From: an uncultured Sphingomonas sp.
Lineage (GTDB): Bacteria > Pseudomonadota > Alphaproteobacteria > Sphingomonadales > Sphingomonadaceae
NCBI RefSeq assembly: GCF_937871615.1
Contig: NZ_CALMPA010000008.1
Location: 1 to 46,899, forward strand
Reading direction: 5' to 3'
Length of the DNA: 46,899 nucleotides
Shown: positions 26,386 through 46,899 of the stretch, piece by piece
Numbering within the stretch: the stretch's first letter is position 1
How the letters are laid out: every line of letters begins with the position of its first letter
The notes under the pieces: generated by a model
What the model was told of the DNA's origin: nothing
Databases searched by the model: none
What the model saw: the letters and a program-made list of their open reading frames with translations, nothing else
Program-made: the position numbers and the translations under genes

Positions 26386-26422
26386 GCGCCGCCGCCCTGT
26401 CTCGCGGCGGGGAGCCACCTCG

Positions 26423-26504
26423 CCGTTCGTGCTGAGCTTGTCGAAGCACTGTCTTTCTTCCGGTGAAGAAATGGGCAGCCCTTCGACAGGCTCAGGGCGA
26501 ACGG
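26423..26504. repeat. Dispersed imperfect palindrome, GAGCTTGTCGAAG type
   Basis: Left arm CCGTTCGTGCTGAGCTTGTC and right arm GACAGGCTCAGGGCGAACGG form a long imperfect inverted repeat in the 271-base gap between the acyl-CoA dehydrogenase and the nitronate monooxygenase gene. The same family recurs at 38210-38288. Repeats of this type are widespread in sphingomonads and other proteobacteria. The rest of the gap holds only the promoter region of the downstream gene. Confidence 0.85.
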
Positions 26505-33007: not shown

Positions 33008-33223
33008 CGCCGCGTCGCCATTCAGGGCGGATCGAACCGAGAATGGTGCTCGGCGCGGCAAGCCGCTTTTCGCGCGCCGGCATGAGTTGAAAGGCACGGG
33101 CCGCGCGTTCGTGGAAGGACGCGGCGGCCCGCGTGCCATGCGAGGAAAAGGAGTGAGCAACTCGCCGGCTTCGCTGTCATGTGGCGTGCGCACGGGGCGC
33201 ACGGGGCGCACTGGCGCGCGCGG

Positions 33224-33690
33224 GGTCTGGAAAACAGCGGAAGGCTATCGGCATTGGCGCGCCGAGGGCGGAACGTCGCGCCTGCGTCGCGGTTGATCCT
33301 GAACGGTGCGCTCATGCCGCCGGGCGCGCGGGGCGCACGGGGTCTGGAAAACAGCGGAAAGCCATCGGCATTGGCGCGCCGAGGGCGGAACGTCGCGCCT
33401 GCGTCGCGGTTGATCCTGAACGGTGTGCTCATGCCGCCGGGCGCGCGGGGCGCACGGGGTCTGGCAAACAGCGGAAGGCTATCGGCATCGGCGCGCCGAG
33501 GGCGGAACGTCGCGCTTGCGTCGCGGCTGATCCTGAACGCTGCTCTTATGCCGCCGGGCGCGTGAGAGCGGCACGCCCGCTTCGCCATCACGCCGCGAAC
33601 AGCGGCTGGAAAGCGGCGCGGACCTATCGACATCGCCGCGCAAGGCGGAACGTCGCGCCTGTGGCACGGCTGATCCTGAACGGGGGAGAA
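33224..33690. repeat. 117-bp tandem repeat array, three good copies plus a decayed fourth
   Basis: Units begin at 33224, 33341 and 33458 (exact 117-base spacing, each starting GGTCTGG), with a diverged fourth unit at about 33597-33690. Copies share long identical blocks such as GCGCGCCGAGGGCGGAACGT. 117 is a multiple of three, so long open frames exist on both strands with a 39-residue period, but none has gene-like features. The array sits in the 827-base gap (33008-33834) between apt and a lipoprotein gene. An imperfect hairpin (about 33096-33138) precedes it. Confidence 0.9.
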
Positions 33691-38186: not shown

Positions 38187-38209
38187 GCGATAACCCGGCC
38201 ATATTCCCG

Positions 38210-38288
38210 CTCGCCCTGAGCTTGTCGAAGGGCCGCCTTCTTCCCCGAAAAGTGCAGGGCTTCGACAAGCTCAGCCCGAACGGCGAGG
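38210..38288. repeat. Dispersed palindrome, GAGCTTGTCGAAG type, second copy
   Basis: CTGAGCTTGTCGAAG on the left is matched by CTTCGACAAGCTCAG on the right, with imperfect outer arms (CTCGCC and GGCGAG). It is the same family as 26423-26504 and sits just after the merR stop. Confidence 0.85.
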
Positions 38289-38317
38289 GGGGGAAGGGCG
38301 GCTCGCCCGCCGCGTTC

Positions 38318-38411
38318 GTCATTCCCGCGCAGGTGGGAATCCATTTTCGGCTGGTGGCGCGATTCTATTCCCTGATCCGCGTGAATGGATTCCCGCCTGC
38401 GCGGGAATGAC
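38318..38411. repeat. Dispersed palindrome, TCATTCCCGC type
   Basis: Two 28-base arms (38318-38345 and 38384-38411) starting GTCATTCCCGCGCAGG match as inverted repeats at 27 of 28 positions, around a 38-base spacer. It ends ten bases before the ychF stop and may act as the 3' end structure of that gene. Confidence 0.88.
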
Positions 38412-38420
38412 GGCGGAACC

Positions 38421-39595: not shown

Positions 39596-41284
39596 TCAGC
39601 GCTGCTCGTGCGGGCGTTCCGGATGCTCGTGCGGCGGCGCGGCGGGGCGGGGCGCCGGTTGTTCCTGCACGCGCGGCGCCTGCATCTGCGCGCGCTGGAA
39701 GGATTCGGAGGCGCGCGCCTGCTGCTGCTGCGCCCGCGCCTGCATTTCCTGCGCGCGGGCGGCGCCGGCCTGTTCGCGGCGGGCCATGTCCGCCATGCGT
39801 GCCTGCTGCTGCTCCATCCGCGCGGCCTGCTGGCGCTCCATCTGGGCGGCCTGCTGCTGGCGATACTGCATCACGTCCGCTGCACGGGCCTGCTGCTCAC
39901 GGCGCTGCGTCATTTCGGCGGCGCGGGTTTGTTGTTGCTCGAAGCGCACGGCTTGCTGCTGGCGGCGTTGCATCGTTTCGGCGGCGTGGGCCTGTTGTTG
40001 CTCGAAGCGCACGGCCTGCTGCTGGCGGCGTTGCGTCATTTCGGCGGTGCGGGTTTGTTGTTGCTCGAAGCGCACGGCCTGCTGCTGGCGGCGTTGCATC
40101 GTTTCGGCGGCGTGGGCCTGTTGTTGCTCGAAGCGCACGGCTTGCTGCTGGCGGCGCTGCATCGTGTCGGCGACGCGGGCCTGTTGCAGATGCGCGGTCT
40201 GCATCTGCATCGCCTGCTGACGCTGCGCGAGCATCCGGGCTTGCTCCTGCTGGACGCGGGCGGCATCCGCGAGCCGGGCCTGCTGTTCCTCCTGCTGGCG
40301 TTGCGCCGCGATCGCGGCGTTATGCGCCATCACCGCCCCGCTCGCGACCGCGCCGCCGGTGATCGCCGCCGCCGCCGGCGCGAAATGATCCGGATTGCGC
40401 GCCCAGGATGCCTGTTGCCATTGCACGGGAATCGCGCGTGGCGGCGGGGCGGAGCGGAAGCCCTGCGATTGCCAGGTGGCGAAGCGGCGGGCATCCGCGC
40501 CGCGCCGCACCTGCTCGGTCCGCCAGTGGCTTTCAGCGGCGGCGTTGGTTTGCGCATAGCTTTCCCACAAGGGCTGGCGCGCCCGCGCGGCGCCCCATTG
40601 CAGGCGCGCCTCGAACCAGCCGGTGCGGCGATCCGCCCAGTTCGCGGCGTTGATCGGGAGGCGCTCGTCACGCGAGGCGCGCCACATGTCGCGGCCACGC
40701 ACCAGATAGCGCGAGGCATAGATCACCTGCGGCCCGTAATCCGCCCATGGGATGATCGCGCCATCCACGGCATAGACCACCGCGAGCTGGCCGTTGGCAT
40801 AACCGTAGGAGTAATCGGGGCATCTGATGAAATAGGGTTCGTCGGCGCCGGGGCGATAATAATAGGAACGATAACCGCCGGCGACCGGCTCCACGAACAC
40901 GATCGAATCGTCATAGGCCTGCCACGCCCATGGCTCCACGCCCTGATAATCGAAGCCGTAATCGGGCGGCGCCTCGCCAAGCGCGTCGGCGAAACCATAA
41001 GCCGCGTTGGCATAGGCATAGCCCGCGCCGCTCGCCGCATCGCGCACCCGCACGGTGCGGATCGGGCGCGTTTCGGGAAGCGAGGTGACGCGCGGCGCGA
41101 AGGTTGCCGGGGTTGCCGGCCCGTCGACCATCGGCAGCGTCGCGGGCAGATCGGGCAATGGGGCGATCGCGCTCTGGTTGTTCAGCAGCGCCTGATCGAC
41201 GGCGGGGGTGCGATTGCATCCGGCCAGCGCCAATGCCGCCAGCGCCACCGACGCACCGAGATGGGAAATGCGAAATCCGGCCAT
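39596..41284 (-). CDS. Large Gln-rich lipoprotein with 21-residue coiled-coil repeats
   Basis: A 562-residue predicted lipoprotein (LALAGC lipobox). The N-terminal half is Tyr/Trp-rich (RSYYYRPGADEPYFIRCPDY) with no domain I recognise. The C-terminal half is Gln/Arg/Ala/Met-rich and heptad-like. Residues about 368-451 contain four exact-length 21-residue units of the type MQRRQQQAVRFEQQ plus seven residues, with decayed units on both sides. The last 50 residues are Pro/His-rich. It may be a long rod in the periplasm. Function unknown. Confidence 0.75.
   Translation of the reverse strand: MAGFRISHLGASVALAALALAGCNRTPAVDQALLNNQSAIAPLPDLPATLPMVDGPATPATFAPRVTSLPETRPIRTVRVRDAASGAGYAYANAAYGFADALGEAPPDYGFDYQGVEPWAWQAYDDSIVFVEPVAGGYRSYYYRPGADEPYFIRCPDYSYGYANGQLAVVYAVDGAIIPWADYGPQVIYASRYLVRGRDMWRASRDERLPINAANWADRRTGWFEARLQWGAARARQPLWESYAQTNAAAESHWRTEQVRRGADARRFATWQSQGFRSAPPPRAIPVQWQQASWARNPDHFAPAAAAITGGAVASGAVMAHNAAIAAQRQQEEQQARLADAARVQQEQARMLAQRQQAMQMQTAHLQQARVADTMQRRQQQAVRFEQQQAHAAETMQRRQQQAVRFEQQQTRTAEMTQRRQQQAVRFEQQQAHAAETMQRRQQQAVRFEQQQTRAAEMTQRREQQARAADVMQYRQQQAAQMERQQAARMEQQQARMADMARREQAGAARAQEMQARAQQQQARASESFQRAQMQAPRVQEQPAPRPAAPPHEHPERPHEQR
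39931..40182 (-). repeat. 63-bp tandem repeat within the Gln-rich lipoprotein gene
   Basis: The block GTTGTTGCTCGAAGCGCACG recurs at 39931, 39994, 40057 and 40120, exactly 63 bases apart. Two unit types alternate (the AHAAETM and TRTAEMT/TRAAEMT forms), so a 126-base unit seems to have duplicated. The period keeps the reading frame and equals three heptads. Confidence 0.92.
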
Positions 41285-43479: not shown

Positions 43480-43583
43480 AAGCCCCTCCCCTTCAGGAGA
43501 GGGGGTGGGGTGGGGGATGACCCGCAGAGACCGTCGCTCTTGACTGCCCCACCCCCAACCCCTCCCCTGAAGGGGCAGGGCTT
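43480..43583. repeat. Palindromic repeat, CCCCTCCCCTTCAGGGG type, intergenic copy
   Basis: Left arm starts AAGCCCCTCCCCTTCAGG and right arm ends CCTGAAGGGGCAGGGCTT, with GGGGTGGGG/CCCCACCCC inside and a 30-base centre. It lies between rplY and the TraB/GumN gene. The element in glyS (46724-46831) is the same family in opposite orientation: even the centres (GAGACCG, GACTGCCCC) align after reverse complementing. Confidence 0.9.
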
Positions 43584-44488: not shown

Positions 44489-44543
44489 AGCGGGCGACCT
44501 CGTGTCAAAAGTGGCAGGGTGAGGCTTAATTGATTTTCGATGC

Positions 44544-44620
44544 GGCGCCAGCCCGCTCCCCCACCCCGCCTCCCATCGGCAACATGACTGGGAGGCGGGG
44601 TGGGGGAGCGGGCTGGCGCC
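44544..44620. repeat. Perfect 32-bp inverted repeat upstream of glyQ
   Basis: The 32 bases 44544-44575 (starting GGCGCCAGCCCGCTCCC) are matched exactly by the reverse complement at 44589-44620, around a 13-base loop. It lies 76 bases before the glyQ ATG and behind the divergent TraB/GumN gene. There is no T-run. It is probably a mobile palindromic repeat and could fold in the glyQ leader RNA. Confidence 0.92.
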
Positions 44621-44696
44621 GTCCGACGGCTGAAAGCCGCGCAAAAGACTCCGTACCCTTGCCTGTTGGCGAGCCATCCGTCATTGCGCGCGCGCG

Positions 44697-45608
44697 ATGA
44701 ACATGAGGTCAACAGACACGCCGCTGAGCTTCCAGGACATGATCCTGCGCCTCCATCAATATTGGAGCGAGCGCGGGTGCGTGATCCTTCAGCCGTATGA
44801 CATGCGGATGGGCGCCGGCACCTTTCACCCCGCGACGACGCTGCGCTCGCTCGGCCCGGAGCCGTGGAACGCCGCCTTCGTCCAGCCCAGCCGCCGCCCG
44901 ACCGACGGGCGCTATGGCGAAAACCCCAACCGGCTCCAGCATTATTACCAATATCAGGTGATCCTGAAGCCCAGCCCGCCGGACCTGCAGCAGCTCTATC
45001 TCGGCAGCCTCGCCGCGATCGGGGTGGATATGAGCGTCCACGATATCCGCTTCGTCGAGGATGATTGGGAAAGCCCGACGCTCGGCGCCTGGGGGCTGGG
45101 CTGGGAAGTGTGGTGCGACGGGATGGAGGTGACGCAGTTCACCTATTTCCAGCAGATGGGCGGTTATGATTGCAAGCCGGTGGCGGGCGAGCTGACCTAC
45201 GGCCTCGAACGGCTGGCGATGTATATCCAGAATGTCGACAATGTGTACGACCTGCGCTTCAACGACGAGGGCGTCAGCTACGGCGACGTGTTCCTTGAGA
45301 ATGAGCGCGAGATGTCGACGTGGAATTTCGAGGTCGCCGATACCGACGCCTTGTTCGATCTGTTCCGGAAAGCGGCGGCGGAATGCGAGAATGCGCTCGC
45401 CGCGAAGCTGCCGATCGCGGCTTATGAACAGGCGATCGAGGCGAGCCACATCTTCAACCTGCTCAACGCGCGCGGCGTGATCTCCGTGGCGGAGCGGCAA
45501 GCCTATATCGGCCGCGTGCGCGATCTGGCCAAGGCGAGCTGCGCGGCGTGGATCGAGAAGAATACGCCCGCATGGCAGGCGAAATATCCCGAATGGAGCG
45601 CGGCGTGA
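44697..45608 (+). CDS. glyQ: Glycyl-tRNA synthetase alpha subunit
   Basis: The 303-residue catalytic subunit of the bacterial alpha2-beta2 glycyl-tRNA synthetase. [52 protein letters not shown] and [20 protein letters not shown] are class II core signatures of GlyQ. The ATG at 44697 is used; a second ATG two codons later is possible. The stop overlaps the glyS start (GTGA). Confidence 0.97.
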
Positions 45609-46899
45609 CCGATTTCCTGCTCGAACTCCGCTCGGAGGAAATCCCCGCCCGGATGCAGGCCAAGGCGCGCGACGATCTCGCGCGGCTGTTCGCCGCCGAA
45701 CTGGCGCAATCGGGCATCACGGCGGCGGAGACGATCAGCTACGCCACCCCGCGCCGCCTCGCGCTGATCCTGCGCGGCTTGCCGCAAGCCACGCAAGCCG
45801 TGCGCGAGGAATTGAAAGGCCCGCGTAGCTCCGCGCCGCCACAGGCGCTGGAGGGGTTCCTGCGCAAGACGGGCCTTGCGCGCGAGCAGCTTGAGGAGCG
45901 CGACGGCGTGTTCTTCGCGGTGATCGAGCGCCCTGGCCGCGCGACGGCGGAGGTGCTCGCCAGCGCGATTCCCGCGGTGATCCGCGCTTTCGCCTGGCCC
46001 AAGTCGATGCGCTGGGGCGCGGCCTCGCGCTCCACCGAGAGCCAGCGCTGGGTGCGCCCGCTGCACGGCATCGTCGCGCTGTTCGGCGGCGATATCGTGC
46101 CCGTCACGGTTTCCGGCGTGGAGAGCGGGGCGGCGACGCTCGGCCACCGCTTCCACCATCCCGGCGCGATCACGATCGGCTCGGCGGGCGATTACGTCGA
46201 GAAGTTGCGCGCGGCGCATGTCATCGTCGATCAGGACGAGCGGATGGCGATCATCCGCACCCGCGCGTCGGCGCTGGCGCGTGAGGCGGGGCTGGAACTG
46301 ATCGAGGACGAGGGGCTGGTCGCGGAGAATGCCGGCCTCACCGAATGGCCGGTGCCGCTGCTTGGCCGCTTCGACGCGGCGTTCCTTGAGGTGCCGCCCG
46401 AGGCGATCCAGCTCACCGCGCGGGTGAACCAGAAATATTTCGTCTGCCGCGACGGCGCGGGCAAGCTCGCCAACGCCTTCGTCTGCACCGCCAATATCGC
46501 CGCGACCGATGGCGGCGCGAAGATCGTCGAGGGCAACCGCAAGGTGCTCGCCGCGCGGCTGGCGGATGCGCGCTTCTTCTACGAGACGGACTTGAAGGTG
46601 CCGCTCGCGGAGCAGGCGAAGAAGCTCGAAAAGATCGTCTTCCACGAAAAGCTCGGCACCGTGGCGGACAAGGTGGAGCGGGTGGCGAAGCTCGCGCGCT
46701 GGCTGGTGGAAGAAGGGATCGTAAAGCCCCTCCCCTTCAGGGGAGGGGTTGGGGTGGGGCAGTCCCACGCAGCCGCCGGTCTCGGTGAGACGTCCCCCAC
46801 CCCCAACCCCTCCCCTGAAGGGGAGGGGCTTGAGAAGGCGAAGCTCGCCGACATGGCCGAACGCGCCGCGCGGCTGGCCAAGGCCGATCTCGTCACCGG
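45605..46899 (+). CDS. glyS: Glycyl-tRNA synthetase beta subunit, 3' end cut off, with in-frame repeat insertion
   Basis: The tRNA-binding beta subunit, starting at a GTG that overlaps the glyQ stop. [49 protein letters not shown] and [16 protein letters not shown] are GlyS signatures. Between [10 protein letters not shown] and [20 protein letters not shown], the conserved protein is interrupted by 36 residues ([14 protein letters not shown] to SPEGEGL) encoded by a 108-base palindromic repeat. The reading frame stays open across it. About 431 codons are in the window; the rest lies beyond the right edge. Confidence 0.95.
46724..46831. repeat. Palindromic repeat, CCCCTCCCCTTCAGGGG type, inserted in glyS
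   Basis: A 108-base palindrome: left arm AAGCCCCTCCCCTTCAGGGG and on to GGGGTTGGGGTGGGG, right arm CCCCAACCCC and on to GGGGAGGGGCTT, with a centre of about 33 bases. The arms match almost perfectly over about 36 bases. 108 is 36 codons, and no stop occurs in the glyS frame. The intergenic sister copy is at 43480-43583. Confidence 0.93.

Follow-up and report, generated by a model that had tools for sequence, protein, structure and literature searches.

Palindromic repeats usually sit between genes, and coding regions of Methanocaldococcus contain palindromes, a subject on which our literature search found no paper. In Rickettsia, palindromic repeats lie in frame in unrelated genes and add peptide to their products, according to the accessible part of one account (PMC10969869). 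For alphaproteobacteria, the accessible text of a 2013 study describes CGTC REPs as dispersed hairpins, some of them intragenic, reports such intragenic copies from E. lithoralis and S. alaskensis in tRNA synthetase genes that it does not name, and gives different REPs at about one site in recB of two Xanthomonas (PMC3733652). Hence, REPs in a synthetase gene of Sphingomonadales are not new. Inserts in glyS of Sphingomonas were the subject of no paper that we found, that study being the nearest (PMC3733652), and we found no account in print of the pattern described here, namely recurrent inserts of many classes in one loop of GlyS, a second site in the same protein and tRNA ends.

The window (the whole 46,899-nt stretch analysed) is the complete contig C8 of a 3.99-Mb, 71-contig genome. 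In it, glyS (GlyRS beta subunit) runs on the + strand from 45605 to 46899, from a GTG start, read by eye, that overlaps the glyQ stop, to the contig end, which cuts off its 3' part; the product matches Pfam tRNA_synt_2f with 409.9 bits over profile positions 1-388 of 536. We found a palindromic double hairpin of 108 nt (36 codons) in frame inside glyS at 46724-46831 (+), filling codons 374-409; with GTG 45605 as the start, its first base is the first base of codon 374. The element opens with AAGCCCC / AAGCCCCTCCCCTTCAGGGGAGGGG... and closes with ...GGGGCTT. Its left arm (46724-46759) holds the hairpin CCCCTCCCC-TTCA-GGGGAGGGG at 46727-46748, a 36-nt spacer follows (46760-46795), and the right arm (46796-46831), an inverted copy, has its hairpin at 46807-46828; the 36-nt arms are 94% complementary, and each contains the CCCCTCCCC/GGGGAGGGG hairpin. 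The glyS frame passes through without a stop, and recognisable GlyS residues resume downstream in the same frame, so the 108-base in-frame repeat claimed by the first-pass annotation stands at the same coordinates. Hence, an in-frame 108-nt palindrome that adds 36 codons to glyS is confirmed as real.

Beyond the element, 68 nt of contig remain. A search with the last 341 residues of GlyS from a relative, run without a known-positive control, found no remainder of glyS in the assembly; hence, the 3' part seems absent from it. The upstream frame at 44697-45608 (+), which we take by eye to be glyQ, the GlyRS alpha subunit, served as a control gene and has no insert; its stop overlaps the glyS start. 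Upstream of it, at 44543-44621, lies a perfect 33-bp inverted repeat with arms 13 nt apart. No Rfam match at gathering score was found in the window.

The glyS element is one copy of a dispersed repeat. Its intergenic sister, previously reported at 43480-43583, is present there with 104 nt, a length that is not a multiple of three, and is bordered by frames that we take by eye to be L25-like and TraB/GumN-like. BLAST with the glyS segment placed the repeat at at least 17 other places (40 of 198 candidates scored), and the exact hairpin pattern, which matches the 3.99-Mb genome 13 times forward and 14 times in reverse while its reversed control has no match, added one, giving at least 18. Hence, the copies throughout the genome rule out a chance palindrome. 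Reading frames were checked at 17 of the 18 places, the window sister being left out: 20 frames over 14 places (19 spanning a copy, one touching its edge) had no Pfam match, no frame reached 80 aa at two places, and the Pfam scan passed over some shorter frames that span a copy. Among the places examined, the glyS copy was the only one that we saw with a recognisable gene.

A dispersed palindromic repeat in frame inside glyS agrees with the likeness to Rickettsia palindromic elements drawn by the first-pass annotation; by description, both add a palindromic repeat to a gene frame and extra peptide to the product. Unlike in Rickettsia, here several palindrome kinds occupy a single loop of the same enzyme throughout a bacterial family, and the tested other copies of the window's repeat lack Pfam matches. 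Two inverted hairpins with a spacer recall REPINs and GTAG REPs, but no GTAG tag was seen by eye in the flanks inspected, and no RAYT gene was found in the window's genome (G000), where Y1_Tnp (PF01797) had 0 matches at E <= 0.001 with the control positive in 5 of 14 genomes. The element also resembles a MITE in being short, non-autonomous and dispersed with inverted arms, yet no target duplication is visible by eye at the glyS copy. It differs from CGTC REPs by the absence, by eye, of a CGTC (or TGTC/CCTC) tag and of a CCA-like tail, reading ATCGT followed by AAAGCCCC..., and the CGTC tag is missing by eye from the flanks of five other copies as well.

The window holds further repeats. An inverted pair, CGTCATTCCCGCG...GGAATCCATT / AATGGATTCCC...GGGAATGACG, at 38317-38412 resembles a CGTC REP dimer; copies of a CTTCGACAAGCTCAG palindrome lie at 26415-26451, by eye just past an acyl-CoA-dehydrogenase-like frame, and at 38207-38291; and direct repeats occur at 39887-40201 and 33213-33563, with spacing of 63 nt and 117 nt. 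Peptides resembling the CTTCGACAAGCTCAG repeat occur in frame in GlyS of locus L188 and in PheT of L315 and L316.

We surveyed glyS in relatives, using a GlyS query with matches in 146 of 150 related genomes, a few being only weak (e.g. G007, G020, G025), together with 80 named loci from the GTDB collection, mostly titled Sphingomonas. From 170 glyS loci, 160 were parsed and 134 were distinct, comprising 133 from Sphingomonas and near kin and L198, of another family, which was kept outside the tree and the counts; the ten unparsed loci were L192, which belongs to the genus, and nine from other families. Records titled otherwise are among the 133 (three Hephaestia, an Arthrobacter, a Microvirga and a Proteobacteria bacterium). 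At the codon position of the window's element, 33 of the 133 glyS are empty and 100 hold an insert, typically between W-L-V-E-E-G-I-V and L-A-D-L-A-E-R-A-A-R-L; an empty example reads IVPGADPDHAERA. Alignment with relatives, which had been proposed as the check for a clean insertion, thus gives a positive answer, since the empty sites mark the insertion point.

The occupants fall into ten palindrome motif classes and tRNA 3' ends; the classes are hand-made motifs whose labels were assigned manually at this site and at a second one. Class D (LPGTGRG type) has 19 rows, B (CCCTCTCCCC type) 14, E (LPLAGG type) 12, A (CCCCTCCCC type, the window's own) 10, C (LVGEGRGP type) 9, G (HPGEGRGP type) and H (TPAQAGV type) 4 each, F (PLPGREG type) 3 and I (HPRESGDP type) 1; the others are 10 short inserts, mostly single hairpins by eye, 7 unassigned inserts, 6 rows with tRNA pieces, with or without a palindrome, and one composite of H and K. 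By BLAST single linkage (>= 75% over 35 nt), A to F plus most short inserts form one cluster. In pairwise comparison, matches occur in 49 of 96 A-B pairs, 24 of 84 B-C pairs and 3 of 228 B-D pairs; at >= 60 nt and E 1e-10, two between-class palindrome pairs are left, A-E and B-E. C-rich arms are common to A, B, C, E and F. Judged by their sequences, the ten classes are distinct elements despite this likeness of arms, and at least four kinds are clearly unlike: the A/B/C/E/F group, D, the CGTC-REP-like G/H/I (a resemblance seen by eye) and K, with the tRNA ends besides. Since A, B, C, E and F match over short stretches, some swaps among them may be divergence. In L140, L123 and L073, a further palindrome seems, by eye, to be nested within the first.

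We found that most inserts fold as palindromes would: fold z is at or below -3 in 72 of 90 (DNA folding parameters against dinucleotide shuffles), and those above are mainly short, tRNA-only or unassigned. The first-pass annotation had regarded unrelated sequence at this point in relatives as speaking against its claim; relatives do in part carry unrelated inserts, and the claim survives because most of these are palindromes. Perfect stems of >= 9 bp occur at 5.31 per kb in the first site (23 loci with one; 68 of 71 loci used) and at 2.25 per kb in the second (12 loci); the density is 0.05 per kb over the remainder of glyS, 0.19 over the upstream stretch with glyQ and any spacer, and 0.14 elsewhere in the loci.

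The glyS frame is kept across these inserts. Ninety of the 100 occupied rows, the window's own included, stay in frame to the right flank without a stop; in the other ten, seven contigs end within the insert, two rows contain N, and one (L184) is out of frame, making 90 of 91 readable inserts in frame. In L184 (G083), the frame is lost after a class-E insert, either through a sequencing error or because the gene is truly split. With the frame held in 90 of 91, we found no support for splicing or protein processing and rejected both; a working product does not require such a step. All 78 inserts of >= 100 nt leave the glyS frame open, partly through selection of rows because a counted row must reach the right flank; the other forward frames are open in 51 and 23, and the reverse frames in 49, 44 and 40.

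Eight related species carry a class-D insert of the same length; its variable columns number 7/4/7 at codon positions 1/2/3, compared with 15/11/82 in the 600 nt upstream. Hence, the class-D peptide is not conserved, as its variable columns show no third-position excess. Paired columns of this clade are variable in 7 of 118 cases and unpaired ones in 11 of 41. The element is variable at 9 of 128 positions versus 82 of 200 upstream third positions, which argues that some DNA-level factor slows its change.

Insert classes were compared with a FastTree tree built on 1098 columns upstream of the insert, the insert itself being excluded; leaving out seven rows labelled 'other' gave 126 labelled rows. 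We counted 67 class changes, with a mean of 84.8 (79-91) in 200 label shuffles. For occupied rows only, there were 48 changes versus 56.8 shuffled (least 51); for empty/occupied switches, 22 versus 29.2 (least 25); once A, B, C, E and F count as a single class, 54 versus 67.6 (60-75); and with merged classes and full elements only, 28 versus 31.9 (26-35). Since the observed changes lie below every full-class shuffle, part of the inserts are inherited rather than fresh. There is some inheritance and much turnover of inserts, with changes somewhat below those of shuffled labels.

At the top of a ranked list of swapped pairs, L143 (class B) and L150 (D) have flanks that are 95.7% and 91.0% identical over 300 nt on each side; over the same lengths, identity is 92.7% and 93.0% for L077 (G) and L045 (D), and 92.0% and 90.3% for L086 (empty) and L048 (B). 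L089 retains one hairpin of an element that is complete in L045. Within the clade of the window, class G occurs in L070 and L071, and there is no insert in L039, L068, L069 and L042, whose flanking residues differ. Because the empty sites of this clade differ in their flanks, exchange of glyS segments between species may contribute to the turnover. A single ancestral insertion that merely diverged was rejected because near relatives differ in kind, although part of the variety within A/B/C/E/F could be divergence.

Six rows of the genus carry a tRNA 3' piece that starts at the T-arm and extends to CCA in five (L079, L096, L104, L121, L144) but not in L078. Over 33 of 33 nt, the L144 piece matches the tRNA-Met gene of the genome that carries it, and that of L121 matches its own tRNA-Met gene at 30 of 31 nt, GTC included. 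The 25-nt end in L104 is identical to the end of a tRNA-Met (CAT) gene, presumably of the initiator type, of another genome, and the L104 pattern has glyS as its sole match in its own genome; the L079 piece is similar to its own tRNA-Arg(CCT). The sources are therefore at least three (Met, a second Met (CAT) and Arg (CCT)), and none was found for the L096 piece. A pattern of T-arm plus CACCCCGGCG was too narrow, matching only the glyS copy of one genome.

The T-arm directly follows the Ile-Val codons in five of the six rows and begins 3 nt further on in L078; L246, in another genus, has a seventh T-arm-like piece. Scanning 210 glyS loci on both strands, a set that has some genomes twice, we found eight of nine T-arm-like matches at this site, in six distinct genomes of which one belongs to another genus, and the ninth (L276) elsewhere. 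GTC also stands directly before the T-arm in tRNA-Met; hence, the exact start of the tRNA pieces could be microhomology. No palindrome directly follows the tRNA at two tRNA-Met genes inspected with their flanks (L218, L234).

GlyS has a second site, after NILKK in the anticodon-binding domain. There, 48 of 100 readable GlyS (from 123 complete ones) hold a palindrome by motif, 5 have another long segment and 47 are short. Compared with the insert-free L098, 77 of 120 GlyS of the genus have additions of >= 10 residues at about 371-378, 61 have them at 571-583, 91 at 495-503, 4 at 280-284 and 1 at 181-185. The family's other genera were sampled with 40 of 119 genomes, taken partly for long or interrupted frames, and the 38 GlyS read have 21, 27, 33, 8 and 8 additions at about 371-378, 571-583, 495-503, 280-284 and 181-185, rates that are not a fair sample. 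The third hypervariable stretch, before (D)FFADRLKVQQREAG at L098 residues ~495-503, is unlike between species and mostly non-palindromic by eye. In other genera, L268, L270 and L277 have a common insert, KSDPKSRNFG.P...KDKNPTV or close, at GlyS ~182, which is not palindromic-looking.

Other synthetase genes were compared by length in 41 genomes of the genus. AlaRS gave one full-length match of 2559-2580 nt in 40 of 41, the remaining one being split over two contigs; from this constant match length (lengths only, 40 genomes), AlaRS has no room for such an insert. PheT was detected in 40 of 41 genomes, 36 times as a single match of 2346-2511 nt. When six PheT with long or broken spans were set against a seventh, two, L315 (G001) and L316 (G040), had an in-frame palindrome-type peptide (VRPELVEGR...ASTxSART) at about residue 193, and four had other short additions. 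Hence, GlyS is strongly enriched yet not unique, and the two PheT rule it out as the sole protein affected. The GlyQ tails of relatives have 255-265 residues and no insert (49 of 78 loci read). Some glyQ-glyS spacers hold palindromes, e.g. those of L110, L119 and L121.

The structure of a GlyS with a class A insert (L041) was modelled with AlphaFold2 from a 46-row alignment, giving a mean pLDDT of 81.7 and a pTM of 0.67; the best PDB matches of the model are GlyRS beta chains. We found pLDDT < 50 at 378-401, inside the insert, which starts at 374, with helices 351-367 and 405-423 on either side. Values < 50 also occur at 131-147, where there is no insert site, and at 614-656, within the second-site insert that begins at 611. 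The first-pass annotation's suggestion of a surface loop is upheld by this model of a same-class relative. According to the accessible parts of two structural reports, the HD domain of E. coli GlyRS beta spans 341-540 and has a conserved cavity with Lys364/Arg367 and Lys394 (PMC8464048), which contacts U73 and C74 in the tRNA complex (PMC9908026). The sequence alignment ends at E. coli GlyRS residue 378, and the insert follows a few residues later. By our alignment, the insert would sit in the HD domain, between the segments of Lys364/Arg367 and Lys394.

We judge it about 75% probable that the insert occupies an HD-domain loop which is translated, disordered and unconstrained and has been repeatedly invaded and swapped, with selection preserving the frame. 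A palindromic double hairpin, mobile but non-autonomous, would have entered the short loop between two HD-domain helices of GlyRS beta, moving by transposition or ectopic copying. The loop would be permissive, the insert being translated as an unstructured Gly/Pro-rich peptide that is neutral and leaves the fold intact. Several kinds of palindrome would keep arriving there across Sphingomonas and related genera, newcomers replacing older palindromes or nesting in them and some shrinking to single hairpins, and selection on the essential enzyme would purge inserts with a frame shift or a stop. Position, frame, repeat family, several kinds per site, fast turnover and frame keeping are directly supported by the data above. 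Several observations count against this account: some inserts are inherited, some swaps among A, B, C, E and F may be divergence, tolerance alone leaves the far heavier decoration of GlyS than of AlaRS unexplained, a merely permissive loop does not predict that tRNA ends start at one nucleotide in five of six rows, the class-D element is slowed at the DNA level, and no Y1_Tnp gene was found in the window's genome.

It is possible, as a tentative alternative, that palindrome arrivals are rare and that homologous recombination between species shuffles glyS segments with different inserts, producing the scatter. The classes are indeed scattered on the glyS tree, and the empty relatives of the window's clade read EWLASEKIV...ARRAAELCKADL (or close) where the window reads RWLVEEGIV..., which suggests an exchanged segment; yet the best swapped pairs, at the top of the ranked list, hold 90-96% flank identity on both sides, and unlike palindromes and tRNA ends would still have had to arrive several times independently. 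The tRNA ends mean that a DNA-level preference for the loop may exist. It is unlikely, in our judgement, that the loop is a hotspot where the sequence around GG(G/C)ATCGTC is targeted by an activity inserting hairpin DNA (REPs, tRNA T-arm/3' ends) and the protein loop just permits this. Such targeting would fit 3' pieces from at least three tRNAs starting right after the Ile-Val codons in five of six genus rows, the clustering of eight of nine T-arm-like matches at the glyS loop and the CGTC foot and CCA tail of CGTC REPs, as given in the accessible text of PMC3733652. However, one palindrome class starts at several offsets (A at +3, +9 and +12), the Ile-Val codons end in CGTC in 18 of 34 rows without an insert and in 33 of 100 with one, which codon choice could produce, and the exact tRNA start could be microhomology via GTC. 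Quite unlikely is the further proposal that the glyS loop is a true DNA landing site for an activity that takes any right-ended stem-loop, REPs and tRNA T-arm/3'-CCA ends alike. Because both end in CCA, a single enzyme may act on CGTC REPs and on tRNA 3' ends, and if this proposal is true, the mover of CGTC REPs becomes findable.

We consider it improbable that the insert is retained for a function, as a protein arm near the tRNA or as an mRNA hairpin pacing translation, even with its place between the Lys364/Arg367 and Lys394 segments of the cavity that contacts U73 and C74 (accessible parts of PMC8464048 and PMC9908026), the occupancy of 100 of 133 glyS and the lower variability of paired columns (7 of 118) than of unpaired ones (11 of 41) in one clade; the inserts have neither sequence nor length in common, 33 of 133 sites are empty, and codon-position bias is absent in the one clade examined. 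An assembly artefact or a frameshift in the window's genome is highly improbable. The contig ends 68 nt past the element, the contigs of seven relatives end within the insert, and L184 is out of frame, all points in favour of such an error; against this, the frame runs on into conserved GlyS residues, and in-frame inserts lie at the same place in 90 rows, the window's own counted, including L131, which is titled complete genome.

For Sphingomonas and its family, the repeatedly invaded, frame-keeping HD-domain loop would make one loop of an essential enzyme a natural insertion record, in which a hundred sequences show what landed, the readable ones in frame bar one. Through it, an essential protein would have acquired long, disordered arms in a domain that contacts tRNA, the arm sequence being under no evident selection. 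The loop appears to accept inserted DNA repeatedly without breaking the enzyme.
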